Source: Rhizobium sp. NXC24
Lineage (GTDB): Bacteria; Pseudomonadota; Alphaproteobacteria; Rhizobiales; Rhizobiaceae
DNA length: 64,000 nt
Assembly: GCF_002944315.1 (NCBI RefSeq)
Contig: NZ_CP024311.1
Location: 286,501 to 350,500, forward strand
Reading direction: 5' to 3'
Of this stretch, positions 12,925 to 63,979 are shown one piece after another (within the stretch, counting starts at the first letter, position 1; each line of letters starts with the position of its first letter). The position numbers were made by a program, and so were the translations under genes. Below the pieces are notes generated by a model. That model searched no databases, was not told the origin of the DNA, and worked only from the letters and a program-made list of their open reading frames with translations.

Positions 12925-14844
12925 ATGCAGCCGGCTTCCTATCATCTCGAAAACACCTGGTCCCCCGATGGCGGACCGAACGGCCGCCTGACCTTTACGC
13001 TGATCAATCTCTCGGATGCGCCGCTCACCGGTTTCCGCCTCGTCTATACCTCGCTGACGCGCGTCATCGATCCCAAGGCTTGCGACAATGCCGTCTTCCT
13101 GCGCCGCAACGCCAATTTCCATGAATTCGCCCCGCCTGCCGGCCTCTCCCTGGCATCGGGCGAAAGCTGGACCTTCAGCGTCAGCGGCCTGAACCGGACA
13201 GCGAAACATTGCACCGATGGCGCCAAATCCGCCTATCTGACACTGTCCGACGGCAGCCATGTGCCGGTGTCCGTCACCGATCTCCTGCTTGAAGGTCGCG
13301 TCAGCGAGCCGCCGCCGGTGCTGCTGCCGGAAGGCAAGCTCGATCTTCCCTTCGCCATCCAGCCTTGGCCAGCGGCGATCGATGCCAAGCCGGGCGAAAG
13401 CTTTCCGGTCGTGCTCTATCCCGTCAAGGGAACCGATGCTGCCAGCCTGAAGGCAGTTGCGACGTCGCTGGCGCTCTTCCAGCGCCTGTTTCCGGCCAAT
13501 CACGCGCCATTCAGCCTCATAGCCGCGCCGCAGGGCAGGCCCTTGCGCTTCGTCGAGCGGCCGGCTCTCGCCAAGGAAGCTTATCAGCTCACTTTCTCGG
13601 CCGAAGAGATCACGCTTGCCTATGGCACTGAGGCCGGGCGTCTCTATGGTTTGACGACCTTGGCGCAGCTTCTGGACGGCGCGCGGCGCGAACCCGGCAA
13701 ATTCCGCTTTCCGGCCGCCGGCACGATCTCCGACCAGCCGCGTTACGGCTGGCGCGGCTGCCATCTCGATGTCTCCCGGCAATTCCACCCGAAGGAGAAT
13801 GTGAAGCGGCTGATCGATATCCTCGCCTGGCTGAAGCTCAATATCTTCCATTGGCATTTGACCGACGACGAGGCCTGGCGGCTGGAGATCAAGGCCTATC
13901 CGCAGCTAACCTCGACTGGCGTGCTGCGCGGCCCGGACGAACCTCTGCTGCCGCAGCTTGGAAACGGCGCTGAGCCGGTGGACGGCTCCTATTCGCAGGG
14001 AGATGTCAGGGAGATCGTCGCTCATGCTCTGGCGCTCGGCGTCGAGGTCGTGCCGGAAATCGATATTCCCGGCCACAGCACAGCCGCCCTCGTCGCCCTG
14101 CCGGATCTGGCCGACGGGCAGGAAGCGCCGGAGAGCTATCATTCCGTCCAGGGCTATCCCAACAATGCCCTCAACCCGGCCGTGGAGCCGACCTATGAGT
14201 TCCTCGGGAAAGTGTTCGATGAAATGGTCGAGCTGTTTCCCTCCGAATATATCCACATCGGCGGCGACGAAGTGGCCAACGGTTCCTGGCTCGCCTCGCC
14301 GCTCGCCCGCAAACTGATGGAGCAGGAAGGCATATCCGGCACGTTCGCGCTGCAATCCTATTTCCTGAAGCGGGTGAAGACGATGCTGACGGCGCGCGGC
14401 CGCAAGCTAGCCGGCTGGAACGAAGTCGCCCATGGCGGCGGCGTCGGCACGGAAGGCACGCTGCTGATGGCCTGGGAGAAACCGGAGGTCGGCATCGAGC
14501 TTGCGCGCGAAGGCTATGATGTGGTGATGACCCCCGGCCAGGCCTATTACCTCGACATGGTGCAGGCGGAAGCCTGGCAGGAGCCGGGCGCGAGTTGGGC
14601 CGGCACCGTACCCCCAGCGCATACCTACGCCTATGAGGCGGAAGGCGAGTTCCCCGAGGAATTGAAGGACCGGATAAAGGGCGTGCAGGCCTGCATCTGG
14701 CTCGAAAATTTCCTCTCCCGCGCCTATTTCAACCGCCTCGTCTTCCCCCGGCTGCCGGCCATCGCCGAAGCCGCCTGGACGCCGAAGGCGGGCAAGAATT
14801 GGGAGCGCTTCGCCGCGATCGTGCGGCTCAGTCCGGCCCTATAG
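12925..14844 (+). CDS. GH20 beta-N-acetylhexosaminidase
   Basis: The 639-residue enzyme has an N-terminal beta-sandwich region (about 1-130), a GH20b-type domain, then the catalytic barrel. HWHLTDDEAWRLE and the acid pair Asp448-Glu449 in HIGGDEV are intact; the barrel releases GlcNAc or GalNAc from glycan or chitooligosaccharide ends by substrate-assisted catalysis. No signal peptide is visible, so it likely acts in the cytoplasm on imported oligosaccharides. It is the last gene of the RpiR/SDR group. AAGGAGAGA precedes the ATG. Confidence 0.9.
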   Translation: MQPASYHLENTWSPDGGPNGRLTFTLINLSDAPLTGFRLVYTSLTRVIDPKACDNAVFLRRNANFHEFAPPAGLSLASGESWTFSVSGLNRTAKHCTDGAKSAYLTLSDGSHVPVSVTDLLLEGRVSEPPPVLLPEGKLDLPFAIQPWPAAIDAKPGESFPVVLYPVKGTDAASLKAVATSLALFQRLFPANHAPFSLIAAPQGRPLRFVERPALAKEAYQLTFSAEEITLAYGTEAGRLYGLTTLAQLLDGARREPGKFRFPAAGTISDQPRYGWRGCHLDVSRQFHPKENVKRLIDILAWLKLNIFHWHLTDDEAWRLEIKAYPQLTSTGVLRGPDEPLLPQLGNGAEPVDGSYSQGDVREIVAHALALGVEVVPEIDIPGHSTAALVALPDLADGQEAPESYHSVQGYPNNALNPAVEPTYEFLGKVFDEMVELFPSEYIHIGGDEVANGSWLASPLARKLMEQEGISGTFALQSYFLKRVKTMLTARGRKLAGWNEVAHGGGVGTEGTLLMAWEKPEVGIELAREGYDVVMTPGQAYYLDMVQAEAWQEPGASWAGTVPPAHTYAYEAEGEFPEELKDRIKGVQACIWLENFLSRAYFNRLVFPRLPAIAEAAWTPKAGKNWERFAAIVRLSPAL

Positions 14845-14989
14845 GCAGATGTCCAGGGTCGTGATTGCCGCAGCCGTGATTGCCTGCATTGCCGGCAGCG
14901 CATGGCTATGTCACGAAACTGATAGAATAGATGCAGGATAATGTGGTTCCTTTCGATAGCGACGTCTGTCACCTAGAAGAGGAAACCCC

Positions 14990-15301
14990 ATGAAGAAGAT
15001 CATTTTGCTCGTGGCATTGGCGCTATCCGCCTCAAGCGCAATGGCAATGTCCCGCTATGACTCCCATCGCATGACCTGTTCGGCTCTTCACGACAAGATT
15101 GCCCGAGAGGGCGAAATCGTCCTGCGATACCCCTCGCACAGCGTCAACAATCTGATGATGTACGATCGCTACGTCTCAAACTCGGCGGCCTGCATTAACC
15201 GTGGTGCCATGTCGAGCGCCTCAGTGCCAACCTCGGACAATCCGAGCTGCAAGGTTCAGCGCTGTGTCTCGACGACGGGGAAGGGGCATAATCGCAAGTG
15301 A
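14990..15301 (+). CDS. Small secreted cysteine-containing protein, unknown function
   Basis: The 103-residue product has a clear Sec signal peptide (residues 1-20, cleavage after AMA). The mature part of about 83 residues has four cysteines (TCSAL, AACIN, SCKVQRC), consistent with two disulfides in the periplasm. AGAGGAAA precedes the ATG. I do not recognise a named family. It stands alone after the hexosaminidase gene. Confidence 0.6.
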   Translation: MKKIILLVALALSASSAMAMSRYDSHRMTCSALHDKIAREGEIVLRYPSHSVNNLMMYDRYVSNSAACINRGAMSSASVPTSDNPSCKVQRCVSTTGKGHNRK

Positions 15302-15394
15302 GCGATGTAAGCCGACTCTATTCAATGTCGGGTTCGATCTGAAAAGCTGCAGAGAAGGAGATCTCGGGACCTCTGCTTCCGGGAAGATCTGCGG

Positions 15395-15434
15395 TTTGAT
15401 TTTGGCGGCGATCAAATCAGATTGGTATCCAGAA
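15395..15434. repeat. Diverged copy of the tRNA-Leu 3' end and flank (attL-like)
   Basis: These 40 bases align without gaps to 16863-16902 with 30 identities. The shared parts are TTTGAT, a second block ending GATCAAA, then TGGT and CCAGAA, which correspond to the tRNA-Leu 3' terminus with its CCA. The rest of the 305-bp gap 15302-15606 holds no gene. The copy marks the left side of the segment carrying the SIR2-like gene. Confidence 0.5.
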
Positions 15435-15606
15435 TTATGGATATTAGCCCTCATTCTCAGCAACAATGGTTATTGAGTAATGTTAGATAGTAGAGCGGCC
15501 CACAGTACCCTTTGCAAATGGAGCATAACGGGTCCAATCTTCGAATCGCGCATATAGATCAAATGTGCATTTCTTGGAACCCAACGAACTTTCAGGCCCT
15601 CTACTT

Positions 15607-16662
15607 ATGTTCAAAGACAATACTGTTTTTGTGATTGGTGCTGGTGCTAGCGACGAATTTAATTTGCCGGTCGGCTGGAAATTGATGAACACCATCAAGC
15701 AAAACTCAAAGTTCCGTTTTGACTACGGGCTTAAGGAGGGTGTCAAAGAAATCCACGATGCAATCGTCAGGCGGTATGAGAACCGCAACGATGAAATCAA
15801 TGCCCGTTTTGAGGCATGCGCAGAGATTTACCGGGCGATTGACTCCGCCGGCTCGATTGACTCATTCATCGACCGAAACAATCACGTGCCACATATTGCC
15901 GAAGTGGGAAAGCTTCAGATTGCCTATGCTATTGCAAAAGCGGAAGGTGCTTCGAAGCTCGCGGTTAACCGAGATAGGAACAGGCAGGATCTAAACTGGG
16001 AAGCTCTAGATAACGCGTGGATTGCGACTTTCGCTCGGGCGCTATTCGACGGCGTTCGCACAACCGACGTCGACAACATTGGTAGCAATATTACCATTAT
16101 CTGTTTCAACTACGACAGATGCATTGAATTTTATCTTATCGCGGCCATTGAACGGAGTTTTTATAAAGTTTCCCGCGAGCAGGCGTACAAGATTGTTAGT
16201 AACATGCGGATCATACATCCGTATGGGACGTTGGGAAGGCTCCCTCAGGGCTTGTTGGACCGGGACTACATACCCTACGGCCCCGATCTCGATCGATTGG
16301 ATCTTTGGAGAGTAAGCGAGTCGCTCGTCACGTGGTCTGAGTCGATTCGTGATTCACAACAAGTGGATGCGATTAAGACTGCCATCGCCCAAGCGAGAGC
16401 TATTGTATTCTTGGGTTTTGCTTTCGCCAATCAAAACATGCGGTTACTTGAGGCTAACATCCCCGAAGGCAAATCCTACTATACCAAGGTCTACTCCACC
16501 GGATACGGCGTGCCGACTCAGGTGGAAGGGGCTCTCAAGGAAAAGATCACAAAGCTATACAGCGCGAGAATGGACGAGTTCATGGCACGATACATTCAGA
16601 TCGAACACGGGCAGAAGTGCGCTGACTTCATAAACACTCATTTGATCAACCTGATGCAGTAG
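15607..16662 (+). CDS. SIR2-like domain protein, probable accessory/defence gene
   Basis: The 351-residue protein has the marks of the SIR2-like NAD-hydrolase superfamily: VFVIGAGAS (7-15) as nucleotide loop, CFNYDR (166-171), the catalytic-type His in HPYG (204-207) and FLGFAFANQN (268-277). SIR2-like modules are NADase effectors in several anti-phage systems, but here there is no partner gene (no HerA, Argonaute or NTPase). It is read from the ATG at 15607; a GTG at 15565 would add 14 residues. Codon use is clearly more AT-rich than in the neighbours. With the tRNA-Leu gene beside it and the repeat at 15395, transfer is likely. A defence role is inference. Confidence 0.7.
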   Translation: MFKDNTVFVIGAGASDEFNLPVGWKLMNTIKQNSKFRFDYGLKEGVKEIHDAIVRRYENRNDEINARFEACAEIYRAIDSAGSIDSFIDRNNHVPHIAEVGKLQIAYAIAKAEGASKLAVNRDRNRQDLNWEALDNAWIATFARALFDGVRTTDVDNIGSNITIICFNYDRCIEFYLIAAIERSFYKVSREQAYKIVSNMRIIHPYGTLGRLPQGLLDRDYIPYGPDLDRLDLWRVSESLVTWSESIRDSQQVDAIKTAIAQARAIVFLGFAFANQNMRLLEANIPEGKSYYTKVYSTGYGVPTQVEGALKEKITKLYSARMDEFMARYIQIEHGQKCADFINTHLINLMQ

Positions 16663-16862
16663 AACCCGACTTGGTGCTTCAATAAAGTTTAGAGCCAGAT
16701 TTCTCACAGGTATTCACGGAGCAGCCGTGGCGAGATTACCCACATGGAGAGATGGGCGTCGGAAGAACCTTCGAAGCCACCGCGCGGCCCAAGCCCCAAG
16801 CGCATTGCCGCAGGCCTTTGTCACAAGGCACAAAACGCGCAAACTTTCACGAAATCTAACTC

Positions 16863-16902
16863 TTTGATCTTGGCAGTGATCAAAAGGAAATGGTGCCCAG
16901 AA
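16863..16902. repeat. tRNA-Leu 3' end and flank, attR-like partner of 15395-15434
   Basis: The segment covers the last twelve bases of the tRNA gene (including encoded CCA) and 28 bases beyond it. The flank contains a small palindrome (TTTGATC...GATCAAA). It is the presumed original of the diverged copy at 15395-15434. Integrases often use tRNA 3' ends, but no integrase gene lies nearby. Confidence 0.5.
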
Positions 16903-16975
16903 GAGGACTCGAACCTCCACGCCTCGCGGCACAGGTACCTGAAACCTGCGCGTCTACCAATTCCGCCATCTGGGC
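16891..16975 (-). tRNA. tRNA-Leu (anticodon CAG)
   Basis: Read on the minus strand, the 85 nt fold as a class II tRNA. The acceptor GCCCAGA pairs with TCTGGGC, the D-arm contains GGAATTGGTAGAC, the anticodon stem CAGGT/ACCTG encloses loop TTCAGGT (anticodon CAG), a long variable arm follows, then the T-arm with GGTTCGAGTCC, discriminator A and encoded CCA. It reads CUG codons. A good promoter lies just upstream (16986-17014). Confidence 0.96.
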
Positions 16976-16985
16976 GACGGACACG

Positions 16986-17014
16986 CATGTAAGGGGGTGG
17001 CTGTCCGGTGTCAA
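16986..17014 (-). promoter_or_regulatory. Sigma-70 type promoter of tRNA-Leu
   Basis: On the minus strand TTGACA (17014-17009) and TACATG (16991-16986) are separated by 17 bp. The -10 box ends 10 bp before the mature tRNA 5' end, as expected for a short leader. Confidence 0.6.
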
Positions 17015-17060
17015 CAGGGTTTTTGAAGTTTTCGTGGCAATCTTGAAAAAAGCGGTTGAA

Positions 17061-17079
17061 GCCCGGGTTAACCCCGGGC
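17061..17079 (-). terminator. Possible terminator overlapping the phosphohexomutase stop
   Basis: A 7-bp GC stem GCCCGGG/CCCGGGC encloses the stop codon in its loop. On the minus strand it is followed, after about ten bases, by six T residues (17051-17046). The gap makes it an imperfect intrinsic terminator. Confidence 0.35.
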
Positions 17080-18498
17080 CGCCGCCCAGGCGCGGATGAG
17101 GCCAAGTCCCTGTTCCAGCAAGGCCTTTGCCTCGTTTTCATCTGCCGCTTCGACATAGCAGCGCATCTCCGGCGCATTGCCGGAGGGGCGGAAATGGATG
17201 ATTCGGCCGTCGGCCAGCGTCACCCGCAGCCCGTCTATATCGCTCTTTGACGCGACGCCGGCGACCGGCGCCAGGAAGGCGGCGAGATTGGCGTCGGAGG
17301 CGCGCAGATAGGCCATCAGCGCCCCGCTGGTTTCGACCGGAAAATTCTCCAGCCGGTCGGCGGCGGCAAACGGCAGGCGGTAGTTGGCGGCAACGGCCGA
17401 CAGCGATTGCTCTGCCCGCGCGGCGGCGTAGAGCGTCGCCAGGATCGGCAGGAAGCTGTCGCGCGTCGGCAGGGCGCGGATCGGCTGTCCCTCGATGATG
17501 AAGCGGCTTGCCGTCAGCGTGCCGCCATTGGCCTCGAAGCCCATGACATTGGCCTTGCCGGCCGCTAAGGCCTCATCCATGCCGGCGATGACATAGGGCG
17601 AGCCGACGCGGGTGCGGGTAACGGCGTAGGAGCCGGCGGCCTCGATGCCGGAATTGGAGGTGACCGGCGTCACTACGACTTCCGCGCCGAGGAAATTCGC
17701 GGCAATCAGGCCGAGCAGGTCGCCGCGCAGCGGCTCGCCGGTTTCATCGGAGACAAGCGGCCGGTCGCCATCGCCATCGGCGGAGACGATCGCATCCAGC
17801 CCATGCTCCGGCGCCCAGCCCTTCAACAGGCGGATGGTTTCGGCCGAGACCGCTTCGGTATCGACCGGGATGAAACTTTCGGAGCGGCCGAGCGGCACGA
17901 CGCGCGCGCCGTAATGGGCCAGCACCAGGCCGAGCAGATCGCGCGCCACGGTGCTGTGCTGATAGACGCCGATGGTGAGGCCGGCGAGGCTGTCGGCGGG
18001 CAGCAGGGCGACATTGCGCTCGAAGAACAGCGCCTCGGCTTCCGCCTTCCGGTCGTCGCAAGTGCCGGGCGTCTCATCGAGGTCGGCGTCGCCGATGTCA
18101 GCGGCCTCAGTGCTGATTGCCAGCTCGTCCTGCTTGTCGATCTCGCCGTCGGGGCGGTAGAATTTGATGCCGTTGCGGTCGGCCGGAATATGCGAGCCGG
18201 TGATCATGAGCGAGGCGGCCTTGAGCTCTAGTCCGTAAAGCGCCAGCGCCGGGGTCGGCACCGTGCCGCAATCGACTGGCGTGAGGCCGGCGCGTTTCAG
18301 CGCGCCGATGCAGGTGGCCGAGATCGCCGGGCTGGACTCGCGAAAATCGCGGCCGACCAGGATGAGATCGCCGGGCTGCGCATGGCCGCTCTTCAACAGG
18401 TGGCGGGCATAGGCCGTGGCGTAGAGGGCAGATGCCCGTCCCATGAGATCGACGGACAGGCCGCGAAGGCCGCTGGTTCCAAATTTCAAGCTGCTCAC
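17068..18498 (-). CDS. Phosphohexomutase (phosphomannomutase/phosphoglucomutase family)
   Basis: The 476-residue alpha-D-phosphohexomutase has FGTSGLRG at the N-terminus, the phosphoserine loop TGSHIP (Ser102), the metal loop DGDGDR (241-246), the sugar loop FEANGG (321-326) and the phosphate loop RPSGNAPEMR (437-446). It should interconvert hexose 1- and 6-phosphates for surface polysaccharide precursors. The sugar loop differs from the common GExSGH form, so preference for mannose or glucose is uncertain. The start is a GTG at 18498 with GAGGAGA seven bases before it. It is a single gene. Confidence 0.85.
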   Translation of the reverse strand: MSSLKFGTSGLRGLSVDLMGRASALYATAYARHLLKSGHAQPGDLILVGRDFRESSPAISATCIGALKRAGLTPVDCGTVPTPALALYGLELKAASLMITGSHIPADRNGIKFYRPDGEIDKQDELAISTEAADIGDADLDETPGTCDDRKAEAEALFFERNVALLPADSLAGLTIGVYQHSTVARDLLGLVLAHYGARVVPLGRSESFIPVDTEAVSAETIRLLKGWAPEHGLDAIVSADGDGDRPLVSDETGEPLRGDLLGLIAANFLGAEVVVTPVTSNSGIEAAGSYAVTRTRVGSPYVIAGMDEALAAGKANVMGFEANGGTLTASRFIIEGQPIRALPTRDSFLPILATLYAAARAEQSLSAVAANYRLPFAAADRLENFPVETSGALMAYLRASDANLAAFLAPVAGVASKSDIDGLRVTLADGRIIHFRPSGNAPEMRCYVEAADENEAKALLEQGLGLIRAWAAARG

Positions 18499-18676
18499 GT
18501 GCAATCTCCTCGGAATGTTGCGCCTCTTATGGAACAAGCGGGGGAAAGGATCAACCGATCGATCGCGGCCGATAGCCGCCTTCGCGCCCCTGGTTTTGCC
18601 TTGAGGGAAGCCCCAAATATAGAGCGAGCCGCGGGAAAAGATGCTGGGTCGCCAAGACCAGCAACAGGAGTCTGCC

Positions 18677-19102
18677 ATGACTGTTTTCGGCAAGATCGCG
18701 TTCGGCTGCGCCGTCAGCCTCGTTTTGTTGTCGCCACCGGATCTCGCCAATGCGGCCTCGAACAGCCCGAAGCTCGGCCTGCCTCCCCCAAGGGTTGGGC
18801 CCACTGTTTGCGACGCTCGCGGTTGTTTCGGTTTCGGCTCGCAGCAATGGTACCGCCCGCCTGGCTATCCCATTCCCTATACGCCGCGGAGCCTCGATAG
18901 GAGGTCGCGCTTTGACAATCCCCGCATCTATATCCAGCCGCGCAATCCTGTTCCGCCGAGAACCAATTACCCGGCGCCGGTCAACAATCGCACGCGGCAT
19001 CAGATATGGTGCTCCGAACATTATCGGACCTACAATCCCGGCACCAATCTCTACACCACCCTTCACCACGGCTTTCAGACCTGCCGCTCCCCCTATTATT
19101 GA
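18677..19102 (+). CDS. BA14K-like secreted protein
   Basis: The 141-residue protein starts at the ATG after ACAGGAG and has a signal peptide (about 1-28, cleavage near ANA). The proline- and tyrosine-rich middle is followed by a C-terminal motif WCSEHYRTYNPGTN...CRSPYY, which matches the BA14K signature of alphaproteobacteria (WC..RYRSY...C.SPY). BA14K of Brucella is a lectin-like immunoreactive protein; in rhizobia the role is unknown. It is probably periplasmic or surface-exposed. Confidence 0.65.
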   Translation: MTVFGKIAFGCAVSLVLLSPPDLANAASNSPKLGLPPPRVGPTVCDARGCFGFGSQQWYRPPGYPIPYTPRSLDRRSRFDNPRIYIQPRNPVPPRTNYPAPVNNRTRHQIWCSEHYRTYNPGTNLYTTLHHGFQTCRSPYY

Positions 19103-48750: not shown

Positions 48751-49368
48751 ATGAAGAAGCCGGGATCGATGAAGGGGCTGGAGGAGCTCGGCCGCGTCCG
48801 GCTGTCGAAGAATTTCTTCCTGCGTGATTTCCTGCACTCGGAGATCGCCGATTTCCATCGCATTCCGAATATCCCCGATGATCCTGATCTGGCAATCGAG
48901 ACCGGCAGCCGGCTTTGCGAGGAGCTGCTGGAGCCGCTGCAGGCGACCTTCGGACGACTGCATATCCGTTCAGGCTACCGCGCGCCCGAGGTCAATGCCT
49001 TCGGCAACAGGAACGGCTTCAATTGCTCGACCAATGCCCACACCGCCACGCATCATATTTGGGATATGCGCGATCTTGATGGTTGCATGGGCGCGGCAGT
49101 CTGTATCGTCGTGCCGTGGCTGATCGACAATTGCCGCGAAGAGGGAGATTGGCAGAAGCTTGCCTGGTGGATCCACGATCACCTGCCCTACGCTTCGCTC
49201 TGCTTCTTCCCGAAATTATGGGCCTTCAACATCCAATGGCACGAGCGGCCGCAACGGACGATCCAGAGCTATGCCCCGCCGCGCGGCATGCTGACCAAGC
49301 CCGGCATGGCAAATTGGCAAGGCGATCATTCGGCCCTCTACGAAGGATTTCCGAAACCGGTTATTTGA
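48751..49368 (+). CDS. Peptidase M15-like hypothetical protein
   Basis: The 205-residue protein has LSKNFFLRDFLHSE and the segment IRSGYRAPEVNAFGN (72-86), close to the SGYRSPEVN signature of M15A D-Ala-D-Ala carboxypeptidases and phage endolysins. The following metal-ligand region is altered (AHTATHHIWDMRDLDGCMGAAVC), with extra residues and a Cys where Asp is usual; a late WH (163-164) could be the last ligand. There is no signal peptide. It may be a divergent or inactive M15 protein. Confidence 0.55.
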   Translation: MKKPGSMKGLEELGRVRLSKNFFLRDFLHSEIADFHRIPNIPDDPDLAIETGSRLCEELLEPLQATFGRLHIRSGYRAPEVNAFGNRNGFNCSTNAHTATHHIWDMRDLDGCMGAAVCIVVPWLIDNCREEGDWQKLAWWIHDHLPYASLCFFPKLWAFNIQWHERPQRTIQSYAPPRGMLTKPGMANWQGDHSALYEGFPKPVI

Positions 49369-49370
49369 CT

Positions 49371-49419
49371 GGGCATGATCTTATCCAAAAACCGCTTCAC
49401 ACTTTTTGGGATCATGCCC
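49371..49419. repeat. Intergenic palindromic repeat, copy C
   Basis: GGGCATGATC...GATCATGCCC with an inner CCAAAAA/TTTTTGG-type stem fills the gap between convergent genes. It is nearly the reverse complement of the first half of the repeat at 53812. Its last base overlaps the stop codon of the leftward GNAT gene, so it probably serves as a shared transcription end. Confidence 0.65.
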
Positions 49420-49862
49420 TAAAAACTGATGCGGTAACGAATGTGTCCGTCGCTCTCGACATAGCTGTCGTAGAGCTTGCGGGCCGTCGCGTTGCTCTCT
49501 TCCGTATGCCAATAGAGCCGCGCCCAGTCGTTCTTTTGGCAGAGGGCGACGAGGTCGTCCATCAACGCCCGGCCGACACCCCGGCCACGTGCGCTTTCAT
49601 CGACGAACAGGTCTTCCAGATAGCAATCCGGCGTACGCACCCAGGTGCCCTCATGCGTCAGGCAGAGCGTGAAACCCTTCACCTCGCCATCGACTTCGGC
49701 GACGCGCATGAATATGGCGGACGCCGGATCGAAGACCCGGCGCCATGTCTTGTCGGTAATATCCGGCGCGATGCCGACGCCATAGAAAGCGAGATAGTCG
49801 GCCCAGAGCTCGCGCCAGCGGCTTTCGTCTTCTGGCTTGGCATCGCGGATCACCACGGTCAT
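49419..49862 (-). CDS. GNAT family N-acetyltransferase
   Basis: The 147-residue protein has the acetyl-CoA loop in LFVDESARGRGVGRALMDDL and the motif B segment WARLYWHTEESNATARKLYDSY, typical of GNATs acting on small molecules or peptides. It stands 19 bp after the aldo/keto reductase gene and may be in its operon. Confidence 0.87.
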   Translation of the reverse strand: MTVVIRDAKPEDESRWRELWADYLAFYGVGIAPDITDKTWRRVFDPASAIFMRVAEVDGEVKGFTLCLTHEGTWVRTPDCYLEDLFVDESARGRGVGRALMDDLVALCQKNDWARLYWHTEESNATARKLYDSYVESDGHIRYRISF

Positions 49863-49881
49863 CGTTTTGTCCCTGCCTACG

Positions 49882-50832
49882 TTATTCGCCGGCTTTGTCG
49901 AGCAGCCTCATCGCTTCGTCGGAAAGCGAAAGCTTTGCCGAATTGATCAGCGCGTCGAGCTGGCTGAGACTGGTGGCGCTGGCGATCGGCGCGGTAACAC
50001 CCCGTTTGCGCAGCAGCCAGGCGAGCGCGACATCGGCCGGCGTGGATTTGGTTTCCGCCGCGACTGTATCAAGAGCGGCGAGAATGCGGAAACCCTTGTC
50101 GTTGAGATAAGTCGCGACGCGGTTTTCGCGCGCCCGGCCTTCGGTATCGGCCTTGCTGCGGTATTTGCCGGTGAGGAAGCCGGCCGCGAGGCTGAAATAG
50201 GTGATGACGCCGATTTCTTCCTTGACGCAGAGGTCCGCGAGCGGACCTTCGAAGCTGTCGCGCGCATAGAGATTATATTCCGGCTGCAGCACGTCGTAGC
50301 GCGGCAGGCCAGCCTTGGCCGCGGCGTCGAAGGAGGCCTGCAACTGCTCGGCATTGAGGTTGGAGCAGCCGGCATGGCGAATCTTGCCCTGTTCCTTCAG
50401 CTTGGCATAGGCGCCGAGCGTCTCCTCATGCGGGGTTTCCGGGTCCGGCCAGTGCGAGAGGTAGAGGTCGATATAGTCGGTCTGTAGGCGCTTCAGCGAA
50501 TCCTCGACCGCCTGCAGGATGTAGTCCGCCTTCAGCCCTTTCTTGCCGGGACCCATTTCCGAGCCGACCTTGGTGATGATAATGGCCTTGTCGCGGGCGA
50601 CACGGCCCTGCTTCAGCCACTTGCCGATGATCTCCTCGGAATCGCCGCCCTTGTTGCCCGGAACCCAGCTTGAATAGACGTCGGCTGTATCGATTGTGTT
50701 GAAGCCGGCGTCGAAGAAGGCGTCGAGCAGAGCGTAGGAGGTCCTCTCATCGGCCGTCCAGCCGAAGACATTGCCGCCTAAGACGATCGGCGCGGTGAAA
50801 AGATCAGTTCGTCCAAGCTTACGCATTTCCAT
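49882..50832 (-). CDS. Aldo/keto reductase
   Basis: The 316-residue barrel enzyme carries Asp/Tyr in TIDTADVYSSW, Lys in IITKVGS and His in YLSHWPDP. The family is the same as, but the sequence differs from, the enzyme at 46019. The ATG at 50832 (MEMRKLG) has GGAGAG in front. The substrate is probably an aldehyde. Confidence 0.88.
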   Translation of the reverse strand: MEMRKLGRTDLFTAPIVLGGNVFGWTADERTSYALLDAFFDAGFNTIDTADVYSSWVPGNKGGDSEEIIGKWLKQGRVARDKAIIITKVGSEMGPGKKGLKADYILQAVEDSLKRLQTDYIDLYLSHWPDPETPHEETLGAYAKLKEQGKIRHAGCSNLNAEQLQASFDAAAKAGLPRYDVLQPEYNLYARDSFEGPLADLCVKEEIGVITYFSLAAGFLTGKYRSKADTEGRARENRVATYLNDKGFRILAALDTVAAETKSTPADVALAWLLRKRGVTAPIASATSLSQLDALINSAKLSLSDEAMRLLDKAGE

Positions 50833-54294: not shown

Positions 54295-55304
54295 GCAGCC
54301 TTGGCCTTTTTCCTCCGGCTCGCCGGCTTTTCGTGTTCGGCCATATAGAGCGTTTGCTCATCGCCAATCTGCCGCGATGGCGGTTTGGCCAAGCTCATAT
54401 AGTGGATGCGAAGCTGTTCGGCGCGGGCGCGAGCGACGGAATCGAGGATCAGTCCGGCTGTGAACAGCATGAAGGAAATCATCATCAACGCCATCGACAG
54501 TACCCAGGTGGGCATGCGGGCGACCATGCCGGTTTCGAAATATTCGACAAAGACCGGGATCATGAAGCCGATACTCGCTTCCATGAACATGGCGCCCAAA
54601 ATGCCGAAGAAGGCGAAGGGCCGCGTTTCCTTCATCAGCATCGCGAACATCCAGAGGATCTTCCAGCCGTCGCGGAAGGTCGAAAGCTTGGAATGCGAAC
54701 CCTCCGGCCGACGACCGTAATCGAGTTCCAATTCGCTGACGGGCAGCTTCAGCCGGGAAGCATGCACCGACATTTCCGTCTCGATCTCGAAACCGCCGGA
54801 GACAGCCGGGAAGCTCTTGACGAAGCGCCGGGAGAAAGCGCGGTAGCCGGAGAAGATATCCGTGAAATCGGCGCCGAAGATCGTGCGGTAAAGCCAGTTG
54901 AAGATCCGGTTGCCGAAGGCATGGCCCTGTCGGCCGGCATCGTCATGTACGCCGCGGCGTGTGCCCACCACCATGTCCGAGCCTTCGGTCAGAAGTGTGC
55001 GGATCAATTCCTCGGCATCATCAGGCGCATAGGTGCCGTCGCCATCGGCCATGAGGTAGATGTCTGCGTCGATATCAGCAAACATGCGGCGCACCACATG
55101 GCCTTTGCCCTGACGCCGCTCGCGTACGACGGTCGCGCCCGCAAGCATGGCATGCAGCGCTGTGCCATCGGTGGAGTTGTTGTCGTAGACGTAAATGCCG
55201 GCATTCGGCAGCGCCTCGCGAAAGCCGCGTACGACCTGGCCGATGGTTGCGGCCTCGTTGTAGCAGGGCAGGAGAACGGCGATATTCAGGTTCTCATTCC
55301 ACAT
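54291..55304 (-). CDS. Family 2 glycosyltransferase (GtrB/DPMS-like)
   Basis: The 337-residue protein has an N-terminal GT-A domain with VLLPCYNEAATIGQVV, the acidic DGDGTYAPDD and GTRRG, and two C-terminal membrane helices (about 225-300). It likely transfers a sugar from a nucleotide donor to a polyprenyl phosphate at the cytoplasmic face. I chose the ATG at 55304 because the fold begins directly after it. It forms an operon with GtrA. Confidence 0.88.
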   Translation of the reverse strand: MWNENLNIAVLLPCYNEAATIGQVVRGFREALPNAGIYVYDNNSTDGTALHAMLAGATVVRERRQGKGHVVRRMFADIDADIYLMADGDGTYAPDDAEELIRTLLTEGSDMVVGTRRGVHDDAGRQGHAFGNRIFNWLYRTIFGADFTDIFSGYRAFSRRFVKSFPAVSGGFEIETEMSVHASRLKLPVSELELDYGRRPEGSHSKLSTFRDGWKILWMFAMLMKETRPFAFFGILGAMFMEASIGFMIPVFVEYFETGMVARMPTWVLSMALMMISFMLFTAGLILDSVARARAEQLRIHYMSLAKPPSRQIGDEQTLYMAEHEKPASRRKKAKAA

Positions 55305-55542
55305 GGTCTCTGGCCAATTCCTACGCATGACTTTCACTTGAGGCCCCGACGGATAATTCGAATGAGAACTTATCCCGCTGCGCGTTAATAAGACCCTATG
55401 GCTGAGGATGAAAAATGGCAGGTTGTGATCTCTGCGGGAACATTATCGTGATATCGGCTGCGGCGTGGGCCTGCTTTACCCTTTCTTGATCGGCAGCCGT
55501 TAGCATGGCGCCCTTGCATGTCCTTCAAACACGAGGTTCGAA

Positions 55543-57459: not shown

Positions 57460-58035
57460 ATGTCGGACCAACGGATCTTCATGGAAGAACAATCGCGCGC
57501 TGAACCGTCGAACATCCTGCGCAAGGTGAGTGGGCGCTTCTTTCGTTCTGTCCCTGTCGAACGCCTCGACCATGTCCTCGATCCTCCGGACGAGAGGAGC
57601 GCGGGCCGCTATCATCGGCTCGGTCAGCCTGCCCTTTATATGAGTGGGTCCCCCGAGTGGGCGGTCATGGCGATTTCAGGTTATATGCGCGAAGACGGGC
57701 GGAGGCGTGTTGTTGTGCCGTTGTTGGTCGGCGACGCATTTGTGCTCGATCAGCATGATCAGCAGGCGTGTGAACGGCTCGGCATTGATCGGAATGCCTC
57801 CAATTTCCCCTGGCGCCCCGCACTGGCTGCCGGCGAGGAGCCGCCGTCCTGGCGCACCGCCGATGCTGCCAGAGCGGCGGGTGCCGATGGCATCATCGAT
57901 CGATCAAGAATGATCCCCGGTGGCTGGCATCTCAATCTGTTTCGCTGGAATGCGCTCGGCGGTCCATCTGTCGAGGTGAGCGGTGATCCGGTTGATATTA
58001 CTTTGTCGGAAGATGGCCCGAAGTGGGGTCTGTAA
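57460..58035 (+). CDS. RES-domain-like protein with altered active site
   Basis: The 191-residue protein shows the RES-fold order: Arg50 in AGRYHRLG, Tyr60 in PALYMSGSPE, and Ser149 in GIIDRSRMIPGG, followed by HLNLFRWN. RES toxins degrade NAD+ using conserved Arg, Glu and Ser. At the Glu position (11 residues after Tyr60) this protein has Ala71. No Xre/MbcA-type antitoxin gene is adjacent. It may be inactive or have another function. Confidence 0.6.
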   Translation: MSDQRIFMEEQSRAEPSNILRKVSGRFFRSVPVERLDHVLDPPDERSAGRYHRLGQPALYMSGSPEWAVMAISGYMREDGRRRVVVPLLVGDAFVLDQHDQQACERLGIDRNASNFPWRPALAAGEEPPSWRTADAARAAGADGIIDRSRMIPGGWHLNLFRWNALGGPSVEVSGDPVDITLSEDGPKWGL

Positions 58036-58075
58036 CCAAAGCTTTGTAAATCCCTTTTGCGCACATGCGCCCGGA

Positions 58076-58303
58076 TCAGGCCTGGCGACGCTCCAGCACG
58101 TCGAGCGTGATGAGATAACCAATGAAGCCGAGGTTGTAACCGCCGAGCGCAACGAACAATGTCGTCAGAGGCGGCGGAACCACGGAGGCGGCGACGGCTG
58201 CCATGAAGGCGATGCTGACCAAGGCCGCGCCCAGGATCGAACCGATCGCCGAACGCTGCAGGCCGGCCGCAATTCCGATGATCATGGCGGTTACGAATAT
58301 CAT
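58076..58303 (-). CDS. Small two-helix membrane protein, unknown function
   Basis: The 75-residue product has two or three hydrophobic segments (about 1-38 and 42-68) and ends LDVLERRQA. A strong GAGGAGGTGGAG precedes the ATG. It is divergent from xseA. I do not recognise a family. Confidence 0.6.
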   Translation of the reverse strand: MIFVTAMIIGIAAGLQRSAIGSILGAALVSIAFMAAVAASVVPPPLTTLFVALGGYNLGFIGYLITLDVLERRQA

Positions 58304-58440
58304 CGCTCCACCTCCTCTTTACCAAAAACAAGTTTGCACAGAATTGCACGAGGATGGCTAAGAAAGGCTTTGTTGATAGGGTTAACGCATGATGAAGGAA
58401 TAGGCTCCGCATTTGCGGCGACTTTCGATAAAAGGACCGT

Positions 58441-60057
58441 ATGAGCAGCTTCTTTGAGAATGATTCGCCGACGAATCTTGCGGAATATTCCGTCTCGGAA
58501 TTGTCCGGATCGATCAAGCGCACCGTTGAGAGCGCCTTCGATCAGGTGCGTGTGCGCGGCGAAATTTCCGGCTATCGCGGACCGCATTCCTCCGGCCACG
58601 CCTATTTTGCCCTGAAGGATGACCGGGCCCGCATCGACGCGGTGATCTGGAAAGGCGCATTTTCCAAGCTGAAATTCCGCCCCGAGGAAGGAATGGAAGT
58701 CATCGCCACCGGCAAGGTGACGACCTTCCCGGGCTCCTCGAAATACCAGATCGTCATCGAAACGCTGGAGCCGGCAGGCGCTGGTGCGCTGATGGCTCTG
58801 CTGGAGGAGCGCAAGCGCAAGCTCGGCGCCGAGGGCCTGTTCGATGCGGATCGAAAGCGCCGTCTTCCTTTCATGCCCAAGGTCATCGGTGTCGTCACCT
58901 CGCCGACCGGCGCGGTCATCCGCGACATCCTGCACCGCATCTCCGATCGTTTCCCCGTGCATGTTCTGGTGTGGCCGGTGAAGGTGCAAGGTGACGGGTC
59001 CGGCGATGAGGTGGCGAATGCGATCCGCGGCTTCAATGAATTTGTACCAGGGGGCGCCGTTCCCCGCCCGGACGTGCTGATCGTCGCCCGTGGCGGCGGC
59101 AGCCTGGAGGATCTCTGGAGCTTCAACGACGAGGCGGTCGTCCGCGCTGCCGCGGCGAGCGAGATTCCATTGATCTCCGCCGTCGGTCACGAGACCGACT
59201 GGACGCTGATCGACTATGCCGCCGACGTACGGGCGCCGACGCCGACTGGAGCCGCGGAAATGGCCGTGCCGGTCAAGGCTGAACTTGAGGCACAGCTCGC
59301 AAGCCTTTCCGCCCGCCTGCAGGGCGGTATGGGCAGGCAGATGGATCAGCGTCGGCAGGCGGTGCGTGCCCTGCTTCGGGCGCTGCCCTCGCTCGACCAG
59401 CTTCTGGCCCTGCCGCGCCGCCGCTTCGATGAGACCGCCGCCGGGCTGGGCCGTGGGCTGGAGATGAACACGCTCAACAAGCGCCGCGCCTTCGAGCGCA
59501 TCGCCGCGCATCTGCGGCCCGATGTGCTGTCGAATCGTATCGCCGAGCGGAGGCAGATGCTGAGCGAGCGGATCAATCGCGCTGAGCGCACCGTCGAGCG
59601 GATGATCGATCGCGCCCGCGCCCGCATCGGCCGCGCCGATGCGGTTTTCGCCACGCTGCCGTCGCGGCTGGCGGCGCAGACCGGCCGCGCCCGCGATCTG
59701 TTAGGCAATCTTTCCCGCCATGCCGACACCGCGATACGCCATCAGCTCGTGCGGGCGCGTGGCGAGTTGGTGGCCCAGGAGCGGATTTTGCAATCGCTTT
59801 CCTACAAGAACGTGCTGAAGCGTGGCTACGCCGTCGTGCGCGACGCGACCGACCGGCCCGTTTCTTTGGCAGCAGCGCTTGCCACGGGCGCCGCGATCTC
59901 GATCGAATTTGCCGATGGCCGCATCGGTGCCGTCACCGGCGACAACCCTGCCACTGCATCGCCGGGGGTGCCGCCGGAAGGCACGCCGCCGCCGAAGAAG
60001 CGGGCCGCGAAACCGGCTGATGCCGCCGATCCGCCGAAGCAGGGAAGCCTGTTCTAA
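58441..60057 (+). CDS. xseA: Exodeoxyribonuclease VII large subunit
   Basis: The 538-residue protein has the N-terminal OB fold ([23 protein letters not shown]), the central [15 protein letters not shown] region, the catalytic [24 protein letters not shown] (about 244-266) and a long C-terminal coiled coil. The C-terminus ends in a Pro/Lys-rich low-complexity tail. It degrades single-stranded DNA together with the small subunit XseB, not encoded here. Its stop overlaps the next gene (TAATG). Confidence 0.95.
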
Positions 60058-60754: not shown

Positions 60755-61864
60755 ATGAGGTTGGCCTCTTATAACGTCGAAAACCTGTTCGACCGCGCCA
60801 AGGCGATGAATCTCGATAGCTGGGATGAAGGCCGCCCGATCTTGGAGAAGTTCGCCGCACTCGAAGGCCTGCTCGGCCAAGTGAGCTATAACGACGCCGA
60901 CCGGAAAAGGATGACGGAACTGATCGTCCAGCTTGGCCTGGAGAAAAGCGATACCGGTCCCTTCGTTCTCCTTCGGCGCAATCGCGGTGCGCTGTTGACG
61001 CGGCCGAAGACGGGCGGTGTCGTCGTCATCGCCGATGGCCGCGCCGATTGGGTCGGCTCGCTGGAGCTGCGCGAAGAGCCGGTGGATGAAGAGGCGATGC
61101 GCAACACGGCGCGCGTCATCGGCGATGTCAATGCCGATGTGCTGGGTATTGTCGAAGTCGAAGGCCGGCCGGCACTCTCTTCCTTCAATTCATTGATCGT
61201 GCCGGCTGTCGGCGGCGATCCTTTCGCGCATGTCATGGTGATCGACGGCAATGATGAGCGCGGTATCGATGTCGGTCTCATGACGCGGAAAGATTTCCCG
61301 ATCGATTTCATGCGCAGCCATGTCGATGATCGCATGCCGGATGGTTCGCTGCTCTTCTCGCGGGATTGCGCCGAATATCGTGTTACGACGCCCGCCGGCG
61401 CGACGCTCGTCGTTTTGGTCAACCATTTCAAAAGCAAGGGCTATGGCGGCGTGCAGGTTTCCGATGCCCGCCGCAGGACGCAAGCGAAGCGGGCGCGGGA
61501 AATCTACGAGGCGCTGTTGACGGAAGGTGTCGATTACGTCGCCTTGATCGGCGACCTCAACGACTATCCCGATAGCCAGCCGCTGAAGCCGCTGACCACC
61601 AGCACCCTGAAGGATGCCTTTACCCATCCCGACTTCGATGATGGCGGCTATCCCGGTACCTATGGCCTCTGCAACACCACCAACAAGATCGACTATCTTT
61701 TCCTGTCGCCGACGCTTTTCGACAAGGTTCAAGGCGGTGGCGTTTTCCGCAGGGGCTTATGGCCGGGATCGAGGCCGAAGCGCTGGGACGTCTATCCGGA
61801 GCTGACGGCGGAAAAACAGGGCGCCTCGGACCATGCGGCCGTATGGGTGGATCTCGATATCTGA
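60755..61864 (+). CDS. Endonuclease/exonuclease/phosphatase family protein
   Basis: The 369-residue protein has the EEP-fold motifs: SYNVENLFDR, IVEVEGRPAL (metal Glu), GDLNDYPDSQP (Asp-x-Asn) and GASDHAAVWVDL (Asp-His pair). It is a metal-dependent phosphodiesterase or nuclease of unknown target. There is no signal peptide, so it is likely cytoplasmic. A purine-rich AGGAGGG precedes the ATG. Confidence 0.87.
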   Translation: MRLASYNVENLFDRAKAMNLDSWDEGRPILEKFAALEGLLGQVSYNDADRKRMTELIVQLGLEKSDTGPFVLLRRNRGALLTRPKTGGVVVIADGRADWVGSLELREEPVDEEAMRNTARVIGDVNADVLGIVEVEGRPALSSFNSLIVPAVGGDPFAHVMVIDGNDERGIDVGLMTRKDFPIDFMRSHVDDRMPDGSLLFSRDCAEYRVTTPAGATLVVLVNHFKSKGYGGVQVSDARRRTQAKRAREIYEALLTEGVDYVALIGDLNDYPDSQPLKPLTTSTLKDAFTHPDFDDGGYPGTYGLCNTTNKIDYLFLSPTLFDKVQGGGVFRRGLWPGSRPKRWDVYPELTAEKQGASDHAAVWVDLDI

Positions 61865-61865
61865 A

Positions 61866-61896
61866 AATACCTTCGCTCCATCGAAACGAAGGTATT
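61866..61896. terminator. Bidirectional hairpin between the EEP and M29 genes
   Basis: AATACCTTCG pairs perfectly with CGAAGGTATT around an 11-nt loop, in the 38-bp gap between convergent genes. It is a likely shared terminator although the U tracts are short. Confidence 0.6.
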
Positions 61897-61902
61897 GATG
61901 AC

Positions 61903-63156
61903 TTACGCCCACTCGCCTCTGCGCATGACCGGCACGCGCGAGCCGTCGAACTTGATGCCGTCGATGTCGACCTTGTCGGAGCCGATCATCCAGTCGATGT
62001 GAATGAGGCTGGAATTGCCGCCCTGGGCCTTGATCTGCTCCTGGCTCAACGTCGCGCCATCGATGAAGCACTTGGAGTAGCATTGGCCGAGCGCGATGTG
62101 GCAGGACGCATTTTCGTCGAACAGCGTGTTGTAGAACAGGATGCCGCTGGCCGAGATCGGCGAGGAATGCGGCACCAATGCCACTTCGCCGAGGCGCCGC
62201 GCGCCTTCGTCGGTATCCAGCACCTTGTTCAGCACCTCTTCGCCGCGCGACGCCTTCGCCTCGACAATGCGGCCGCCTTCGAAGCGAACCCGGATATTGT
62301 CGATCAGCGTGCCCTGATGCGAGAGCGGCTTGGTCGAGGAGACATGACCTTCAACACGCAGCGCATGCGGCGTGGTGAACACCTCTTCGGTCGGGATGTT
62401 CGGGTTGCAGGTGACGCCGTTTTTGGCGACCGAGGCGCCGCCATGCCATTCGTGGCCATCGGCAAGGCCGATCTTCACGTCCGTGCCCGGACCCTGGAAG
62501 TGCAGGGAGGCGAAGCGCTGGCCGTTCATCCAGGCCGAACGCTTGTGCAGATTGGCATTGTGCTCAGCCCAGGCCCCGATCGGATCCGGCACGTCGACGC
62601 GCGAGGCGGCGAAGATCGCCTTGGCGAGCTTGGCGACGGCGATGCCTTCCGGATCGTCCGGGAAGACCAACTTCGCCCAGGAGGGATTGGGGTAGGAGAC
62701 GATGTTCCAGTTGATGTCGAAATTGGAGATCTTTTCCAGTGCGGGCTTGTAGGCGGCGGAGTTGGCGCGATTGGCACGCGCGACCCTGGCCGGGTCCTGG
62801 CCGGAGAGCAGCATCGGATTATCGCCGGAAATGGCAAGCCGCGCGGCGTTGTTGGCATAGGCCTTGGCCATGCCTTCATAGAGCCAACTCGAGGCGCGGT
62901 CGAAGCTCTCCTCATGGCCGTATTCATAGCGGGCAAGCGTGGTTTCTTCGTCGGAATAGAACGTGGTGACGAGACCGGCGCCGGCCTTATAGGCCTCGCG
63001 GGTGATCAGCCGCACCAGCGGCATCGCGACGACCGGCGCGGTAATAACCAGGTCCTGGTTCTTCTGCAGTTGCAGCCCGACCTTCACGGCCACTTCGGCA
63101 AGCTTTTCCAGCTTGGCGGGATCGACGGGATGATGGTTGGGGGAGGCGAACGTCAT
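61903..63156 (-). CDS. M29 family aminopeptidase (AmpS/T-like)
   Basis: The 417-residue metallo-aminopeptidase has VTCNPNIPTEEVFTTPH with the metal Glu, FYNTLFDENASCHIALGQCY and HIDWMIGSDKVDIDG carrying His/Asp ligands, in the order seen in the M29 family. It removes N-terminal residues from peptides in the cytoplasm. Length and motifs are complete. Confidence 0.92.
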   Translation of the reverse strand: MTFASPNHHPVDPAKLEKLAEVAVKVGLQLQKNQDLVITAPVVAMPLVRLITREAYKAGAGLVTTFYSDEETTLARYEYGHEESFDRASSWLYEGMAKAYANNAARLAISGDNPMLLSGQDPARVARANRANSAAYKPALEKISNFDINWNIVSYPNPSWAKLVFPDDPEGIAVAKLAKAIFAASRVDVPDPIGAWAEHNANLHKRSAWMNGQRFASLHFQGPGTDVKIGLADGHEWHGGASVAKNGVTCNPNIPTEEVFTTPHALRVEGHVSSTKPLSHQGTLIDNIRVRFEGGRIVEAKASRGEEVLNKVLDTDEGARRLGEVALVPHSSPISASGILFYNTLFDENASCHIALGQCYSKCFIDGATLSQEQIKAQGGNSSLIHIDWMIGSDKVDIDGIKFDGSRVPVMRRGEWA

Positions 63157-63246
63157 GGCAAACCTGCGTGTGAGGATCGGAAGAACGGTCCCAGACTTAG
63201 ACTTGTTTGCGACGGAAATGAAGGCCGTTTTGTTCTTTTGGCACGA

Positions 63247-63720
63247 TCAGGCAATCAACGGCGCGGCCTTCGCCTTCAAAATCCTCAGCGCATCCTGGGG
63301 GTTAAGGCGCACTTGCAGGCCGCGCTGGCCGCCGTTGATATAGACATAGGCCTCGGCCATCGCCTGTGCCTCGATCGCCGTCGGCACCGTCTTCTTCTGG
63401 CCGAAAGGGCTGATGCCGCCGACATGATAACCCGTCAGCCGCTCGGCATCGGCGGGCTTCATCATAGCCGCCGATTTGCCGCCAAACGCGCCGGCGAGCT
63501 TTTTCATGCTGACCTCATGATCGGAGGGGACAACCACGCAGACCGGCTTGCCATCCACCTCCGCCATCAATGTCTTCAACACCCGATGCGGCTCCTCGCC
63601 CAACGCTTCCGCCGCCTGCATGCCGACACGCTCGGCATTCGGATCGTAGTCATAGGTATGGACGGTGAAGGCAACCTTGGCCTGAGTCAGCACCTGCGTG
63701 GCGCGGGTGGTTTTGGACAT
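63247..63720 (-). CDS. ybaK: Cys-tRNA(Pro) deacylase YbaK/EbsC
   Basis: The 157-residue protein begins MSKTTRATQVLTQAK and includes VLKTLMAEVDGKPVCVVVP, KKLAGAFGGKSAAM and GYHVGGISPFGQKK, matching the YbaK editing domain, which hydrolyses Cys misattached to tRNA-Pro. The ATG at 63720 is chosen on homology; earlier in-frame starts overlap the upstream antitoxin gene. Confidence 0.92.
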   Translation of the reverse strand: MSKTTRATQVLTQAKVAFTVHTYDYDPNAERVGMQAAEALGEEPHRVLKTLMAEVDGKPVCVVVPSDHEVSMKKLAGAFGGKSAAMMKPADAERLTGYHVGGISPFGQKKTVPTAIEAQAMAEAYVYINGGQRGLQVRLNPQDALRILKAKAAPLIA

Positions 63721-63751
63721 GCGGATACCGGTGTCTTTGGCGATGCGGATC

Positions 63752-63979
63752 TCATCCGCGCTTAGAATGAATGCGGTCGAGCTTTTCAAGAATTTCCAAT
63801 CCGCGCGCGCTATCACCGTTTGCTGCTCTCAGGCGGAAGCGTGTTTCGGCGTCGAACTCAGTCAGCGCTTTCGTTGAAAGTTCTTCGAAAAGCTTGTTGA
63901 GGCTCGTGCCGCGGGCGGCGGCAAGAGCTTTCAGTCGCTCATGTTGATCGTTTGGAAGGCGGATTGTCAGTGTACTCAT
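63752..63979 (-). CDS. Ribbon-helix-helix (HicB/CopG-like) antitoxin without toxin
   Basis: The 75-residue protein starts with a ribbon-helix-helix DNA-binding motif (LTIRLPNDQHERLKALAAARGTS, LNKLFEELSTKAL) and continues with a charged helical tail that could bind a toxin. AAGGAGG precedes the ATG. The next gene downstream is ybaK, 31 bp away, so no toxin gene follows; one could lie on the other side beyond the window. Confidence 0.7.
   Translation of the reverse strand: MSTLTIRLPNDQHERLKALAAARGTSLNKLFEELSTKALTEFDAETRFRLRAANGDSARGLEILEKLDRIHSKRG

Follow-up and report, generated by a model that had tools for sequence, protein, structure and literature searches.

Rhizobium sp. NXC24 carries a single SIR2-like gene beside a tRNA-Leu gene with the anticodon CAG, and the gene is enclosed by two copies of a sequence that runs into the 3' end of this tRNA (Table 1). 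The locus lies in a stretch of 64,000 nucleotides (contig NZ_CP024311.1, positions 286,501 to 350,500), which was analysed as a whole and is called the window here; positions are those of the window. We consider it probable that 15395-16902 is what remains of an integrative element at the tRNA-Leu(CAG) 3' end, similar to a cis-mobilizable element (CIME), with the SIR2-type gene as its sole cargo.

Table 1. Features of the tRNA-Leu(CAG) locus and its flanks (att, attachment site; ORF, open reading frame)
Feature	Position	Strand	Evidence or remark
Glycoside hydrolase family 20 (hexosaminidase-type) gene, backbone marker	12925..14844	+	
Native backbone left of the putative insertion	14845..15367	.	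Common to G059 (to 15367) and G013 (to 15315)
Small ORF, 103 residues	14990..15301	+	No Pfam family; edge of the variable interval in 8 other loci
att-like copy, far side, degraded	15395..15434	.	75% over 40 bases, E 0.002
Stretch common to the window and the G282 tRNA-Arg(CCG) locus	15587..16717	+	About 1.13 kb, 83% DNA identity
SIR2-like gene, 351 residues, sole cargo, probable NAD-cleaving effector	15607..16662	+	
Probable integrase start remnant, ATG at 16805, about 16 codons	16745..16805	-	Profile evidence
Integrase leader remnant	16810..16842	-	Leader-only profile, top match of the window, E 5.7e-5
att-like copy, tRNA side (last 12 bases of the tRNA and the following hairpin)	16863..16902	.	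30/40 identical to 15395-15434
tRNA-Leu (anticodon CAG), putative integration target	16891..16975	-	ARAGORN; Rfam tRNA 16894-16975, 53.5 bits
Phosphoglucomutase/phosphomannomutase gene, opposite side of the tRNA, backbone marker	17068..18804	-	

The original prediction described the two copies as a gapless 40-base alignment with 30 identities, and this was reproduced. The repeat consists of the tRNA 3' end and the adjoining hairpin, and the similarity stays in register across 12 tRNA bases, two of them mismatched in the far copy. A chance origin was rejected, since 500 dinucleotide shuffles of the 2-kb neighbourhood gave at most 25 matches. The best alternative sites for the 40-base repeat in the window had 22 matches in the same orientation and 24 in the opposite one. 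The tRNA was the sole Rfam match in 14800-17200. The same hairpin type is found after tRNA-Leu(CAG) in other species. Across species, several unrelated kinds of hairpin directly follow this tRNA (loci L035-L103 and L253-L272), and a common integrase type goes with a common hairpin (e.g. G009, G114, G098 and G037), as if the elements carried their own terminator.

The gene between the copies was said to be single, AT-rich and SIR2-like, and all three points held. Its GC content is 48.7% against 60.6% for the window, and its GC at third codon positions (GC3) is the fifth lowest among 37 ORFs. All other listed frames of at least 80 residues in 15435-16862 overlap it or cross the tRNA. Its product has a SIR2 fold, in which N168 (FNYD) and H204 (HPYG) are invariant across 35 homologues and lie in the motifs that carry the Asn and His of NAD-cleaving anti-phage SIR2 enzymes. 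Judging by motif, spacing and what is known of such enzymes, these would be the catalytic residues. The protein is thus probably a defence effector that depletes nicotinamide adenine dinucleotide (NAD), and it may destroy NAD upon phage infection. Pfam and NCBIfam assigned no family above their cut-offs, PHROGs gave no match, and Foldseek alone gave TM-scores of about 0.4. No relative was found in the phage records searched; plasmid records held 14, every one below 60% identity. As a separate observation, the last quarter of the window holds a group of other low-GC3 ORFs (49083-49946, 54333-55388, 57759-58523 and 61759-63765; 0.53-0.59 against a median of 0.75).

An integrase has left a trace between the gene and the tRNA. 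A profile of the integrase leader and start, made without tRNA and hairpin, matched 16842-16746 at E 3.4e-11, the runner-up in the 64-kb window standing at 0.28. The leader profile was trained on G040, G112, G028 and G025. The start codons alone gave the top match of the window at a weak E of 0.032, and this match adjoins that of the leader. Leftwards from the hairpin through leader and start, the window is 74% identical to G040 over 138 bases, tRNA end included, and the remnant start reads MRLGLGPRGGFEGSS where G112 has MRLRLVSPMVSKGSS. Integrase genes of this group begin some 85-90 bp from the 3' end of the tRNA and point away from it. The window has the same arrangement, with 85 bp from tRNA to ATG (16805 to 16891) compared with 87 in G040 and 86 in G112. 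Among the matches listed, the interval holds the leader and the probable start remnant and no integrase gene, and nothing convincing came of a translated search for pieces of integrase in the window, in G282 and in L113.

Sister species have integrase-bearing elements at this tRNA. A match to the tRNA stretch was obtained in 119 of 120 genomes of the genus, the window's included, and 81 loci were compared, namely the window and 80 of the 118 other matched genomes (all of the 34 best matches, the rest picked by hand). The stretches were short at G102, G114, G077, G043 and G066. A direct repeat into the tRNA 3' end was present in 11 of the 81 loci, counting the window (G009, G054, G098, G037, G099, G011, G018, G112, G025, G040 and G000), which is not a rate, as at least seven (G099, G011, G098, G037, G054, G112 and G025) had been chosen for a known integrase; G096, whose repeat spans the hairpin alone, was excluded. 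Nine of these repeats are 19-26 bases long and 88-100% identical (six exactly) and end 18-19 bases inside the tRNA; that of G040 has 79 bases at 85%, that of the window 40 at 75%. In all ten other repeat-bearing loci an integrase or a piece of one adjoins the tRNA. The frame is full-length in G009, G054, G098, G037, G099, G011 and G018, broken into three pieces in G112, reduced to an N-terminal part in G040 and to a fragment in G025. Outside this set, an integrase but no repeat was seen in the examined stretches of G114 and G001, G023 retains 28 N-terminal integrase residues at 86%, and G028 has an integrase start containing a stop. The tRNA-Leu(CAG) loci form a decay series from full-length integrase through broken gene and N-terminal fragment to start remnant. 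Since the tRNA-Leu integrases of G009, G018 and G040 were among the sequences behind the integrase profile, its matches in these three are circular. Independent confirmation came from Pfam above cut-off and PHROGs for G009, and from PHROGs for G018 and G099, where the Pfam integrase match was below cut-off. G098 showed DUF6538 and an integrase match below cut-off, and G040 DUF6538 only, below its cut-off, together with similarity to the G009 integrase.

The cargo of these elements differs. Related TIR proteins of the CAP12/Pycsar type are the main cargo of G040 (L041, 14274-16559) and G025 (L259, 14438-16366). Other hand-picked cargo includes an Mrr enzyme in G054, a type I restriction protein in G018, an HsdR-N protein in G009 and a TIR_2 protein without a PADLOC match in G011; the cargo protein of G035 had no match. 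Altogether, PADLOC models matched seven of ten cargo proteins, a TIR domain alone was present in one and two had neither, in a sample picked by hand from the ORFs, which is biased and does not give a rate of defence cargo. The Mrr-like gene is whole in G054 and shorter in G009 (L099); at the corresponding place in G009, about 4.1-2.5 kb to the left of the tRNA, stands a frame that by eye looks like an IS66-type transposase. In G011 (L254), G098 (L255) and G099 (L253), the leader/start profile has a match immediately beyond the far repeat as well, at a distance of 8-15 kb from the tRNA. There a newer integrase-bearing element has landed beside an older remnant, that is, integrations at one tRNA were successive.

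Chromosomal homology with two close species ends just left of the far repeat, at 15315 for G013 and 15367 for G059, so that the hairpin of the far repeat lies outside the backbone common to both. The small ORF is present in 8 of the first 60 other loci, and the gap between it and the tRNA ranges from 219 to 2790 bp (1592 in the window). This gap holds pyridoxamine-oxidase-type, short-chain dehydrogenase and LysR genes in G013, a DUF5131 gene with a partner in G059 (matching PADLOC PDC-M41B and PDC-M41A), a WcbI-type gene in G002, and 219 bp only in G034.

We favour integration at the tRNA because sister species hold integrase elements there bounded by tRNA-end repeats, because a leader and probable first codons of an integrase survive in the window where they would be expected, because backbone homology stops just left of the far repeat, and because other cargo stands here in close species and SIR2 relatives stand elsewhere. 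The original prediction had proposed integration at a tRNA followed by loss of the integrase, and with the decay series added this is the best explanation of the locus. An element would have entered the tRNA-Leu(CAG) 3' end by means of a tyrosine integrase encoded next to the tRNA, and integration would have duplicated the tRNA end and the hairpin. The copy on the tRNA side would keep the tRNA whole, and the far copy would have drifted to 75%. The integrase gene would then have been lost apart from its leader and probable first codons, leaving one cargo gene between degraded att sites. We infer both the insertion by an element with the integrase of this leader and the order of the losses.

Several findings set limits to this history. 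No other repeat of the series is as degraded as the far repeat of the window, which covers 12 tRNA bases where whole elements reach 18-19 and is best preserved in the hairpin and not in the tRNA core. In a comparison with other Rhizobium genomes, as the original prediction had proposed, different cargo stood at the site in close species and no truly matching empty site was found; the left flank of the window has no alignment to the 219 bp of G034. G013 has the same leader (85% over 135 bases) with different cargo. An old integrase start is also present at tRNA-Leu(CAG) in other species, so the remnant may stem from another element than the one that delivered the SIR2 gene. Moreover, the closest SIR2 relative (87% identical, in G282), which lies 113 bp from a tRNA-Arg(CCG) whose 3' end faces the gene, shares with the window only the gene and 20 and 55 bp around it, att sites excluded. 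A PF00589 search gave 18 integrases in G282, all of them away from the relative; this search missed the tRNA-Leu integrase of G018, so that its absences are no proof. Finally, among the matches listed, only 8 of the 90 loci of relatives had an integrase-like ORF in the stretch examined, which speaks against a simple element history.

There is some room, though not much, for the possibility that the SIR2 gene arrived by ordinary homologous or illegitimate recombination in att and integrase debris, the repeat at 15395 stemming from an earlier, unrelated element. The age of the leader, the extent of the G282 homology and the far repeats not found at most tRNA-adjacent relatives (below) would fit such an origin. 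On the other hand, the gene lies exactly within the repeat pair, backbone homology breaks beside the far repeat, and an enrichment of the SIR2 relatives at the 3' ends of tRNAs is not what generic recombination predicts.

This enrichment was seen when the setting of the relatives was examined. Relatives are encoded in 18 of 148 genomes of the genus, the window's included, and in none of the 17 others does the gene stand at tRNA-Leu(CAG), as far as coordinates allow. With the window excluded and ORFs of the same loci as controls, a 3'-facing tRNA lay within 600 bp of 10 of 90 relatives and 4 of 347 controls (Fisher p = 4e-5), the ten cases not all being independent (a single tRNA-Met site accounts for L141, L148 and L150, a tRNA cluster stands next to L137, and L142 has a short tRNA). 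Within 300 bp the counts were 6/90 and 4/370 (p = 0.005). A 5'-facing tRNA within 600 bp was seen for none of the 90 relatives and for 4 of 347 controls. In 43 loci the largest cluster of neighbour genes comprised 7 loci, and no conserved partner gene was found.

It is conceivable, if rather improbable, that the SIR2 gene is a compact one-gene cassette that moves among tRNA 3' ends with integrases supplied in trans by other elements and never formed part of a larger island here. Besides the preference for 3' ends, members of the family stand at nine tRNA isoacceptors, the window's counted, and L113 mirrors the window at a tRNA-Thr, where a single gene is followed after 137 bp by a repeat of the tRNA end (30/35). 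At one tRNA-Met in three Rhizobium-group genomes (L141, 7971-9052; L148, 5446-6527; L150), a SIR2 relative in the 285-residue range was observed. In L148 the gene, 80% identical to that of L141, is inverted within collinear flanks of 90-92% identity, which would reflect either separate insertion events or an inversion in place at this tRNA end; a search for an empty tRNA-Met site in this group yielded no clear one. Against a cassette, an integrase remnant is present in the window itself, the unit shared with G282 has no att sequence, and 11 of 13 tRNA-adjacent genes lack a clear far repeat: the repeat beats all 100 shuffles only in the window and L113, and its score was reached by 4/100 shuffles in L222, 8/100 in L155 and at least 24/100 in the other nine. 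That no integration took place, the repeat being a second terminator-like hairpin produced by convergence and the gene an ordinary intergenic insertion, is very improbable, for although the hairpin is the best-kept part of the repeat and such hairpins follow tRNA-Leu in many species, the similarity runs in register into the tRNA above all shuffles and the hairpin lies outside the common backbone.

Decay after integration at the tRNA remains our preferred history. A CIME-like remnant at a tRNA hotspot is a known kind of element. This particular remnant, the tRNA-Leu(CAG) decay series and the tRNA bias of the gene family appear to be new, in that we did not find them in print; no paper on this SIR2 gene or on the tRNA-Leu(CAG) site in Rhizobium was found in a search that was thin for subscription journals. 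Within one genus, a single tRNA gene shows a graded decay that starts with whole integrase elements and ends with a solitary cargo gene. This suggests that cargo of the defence type can persist when the machinery that delivered it is gone. The stand-alone, mostly unannotated SIR2 family has a tRNA 3'-end bias that can be tested, and tRNA-Leu(CAG) is a place to seek further defence genes in Rhizobium. If the gene were instead a mobile cassette, it would represent a minimal defence cassette parked at a tRNA and not the debris of an island.

Among known SIR2 proteins, KomC of the Kongming anti-phage system, a SIR2-domain NADase, shares about 15% identity with the window protein and has 264-277 residues compared with 351, and no KomA or KomB neighbour was seen in the window. 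The SIR2 protein of Nezha (SIR2-HerA), ThsA of Thoeris and DSR2 share 12-16%; unlike these, the window protein is without a HerA-type partner, a SLOG domain or a long C-terminal region, DSR2 chains having about 920-1000 residues with a long region after SIR2. Likewise, the two-gene SIR2 systems (Nezha, Thoeris, Kongming and short Argonaute) contrast with the window, which has no adjacent partner, partner families not having been searched by name. In Sinorhizobium meliloti, tRNA-targeted phage-related elements and islands likewise use tRNA sites and tyrosine integrases, and all site-specifically integrated phage-related sequences of that study are described as having an integrase gene (PMC11476347). 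The window belongs to another genus and its integrase is gone, and the text searched of that source does not mention SIR2. CIMEs are described (PMC5704250) as decayed integrative and conjugative or integrative and mobilizable elements that have lost the integration and transfer genes and kept attL and attR, and accretion is described for them. The window resembles them in having cargo between two att-like copies of a tRNA end, an integrase reduced to a start remnant and no transfer genes, and the newer elements beside old remnants in G011, G098 and G099 resemble their accretion. It differs in its single cargo gene and strongly degraded far att-like copy, and descent from such elements, like mobility, is only putative. 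Its nearest counterparts are the remnants of G040 and G025 at the same tRNA, with 3.6-3.9 kb between the repeats, one main cargo gene of the TIR-domain effector type and an N-terminal part or fragment of the integrase; their repeats are better kept (85% over 79 bases and 92% over 26) and more of the integrase is left than in the window.
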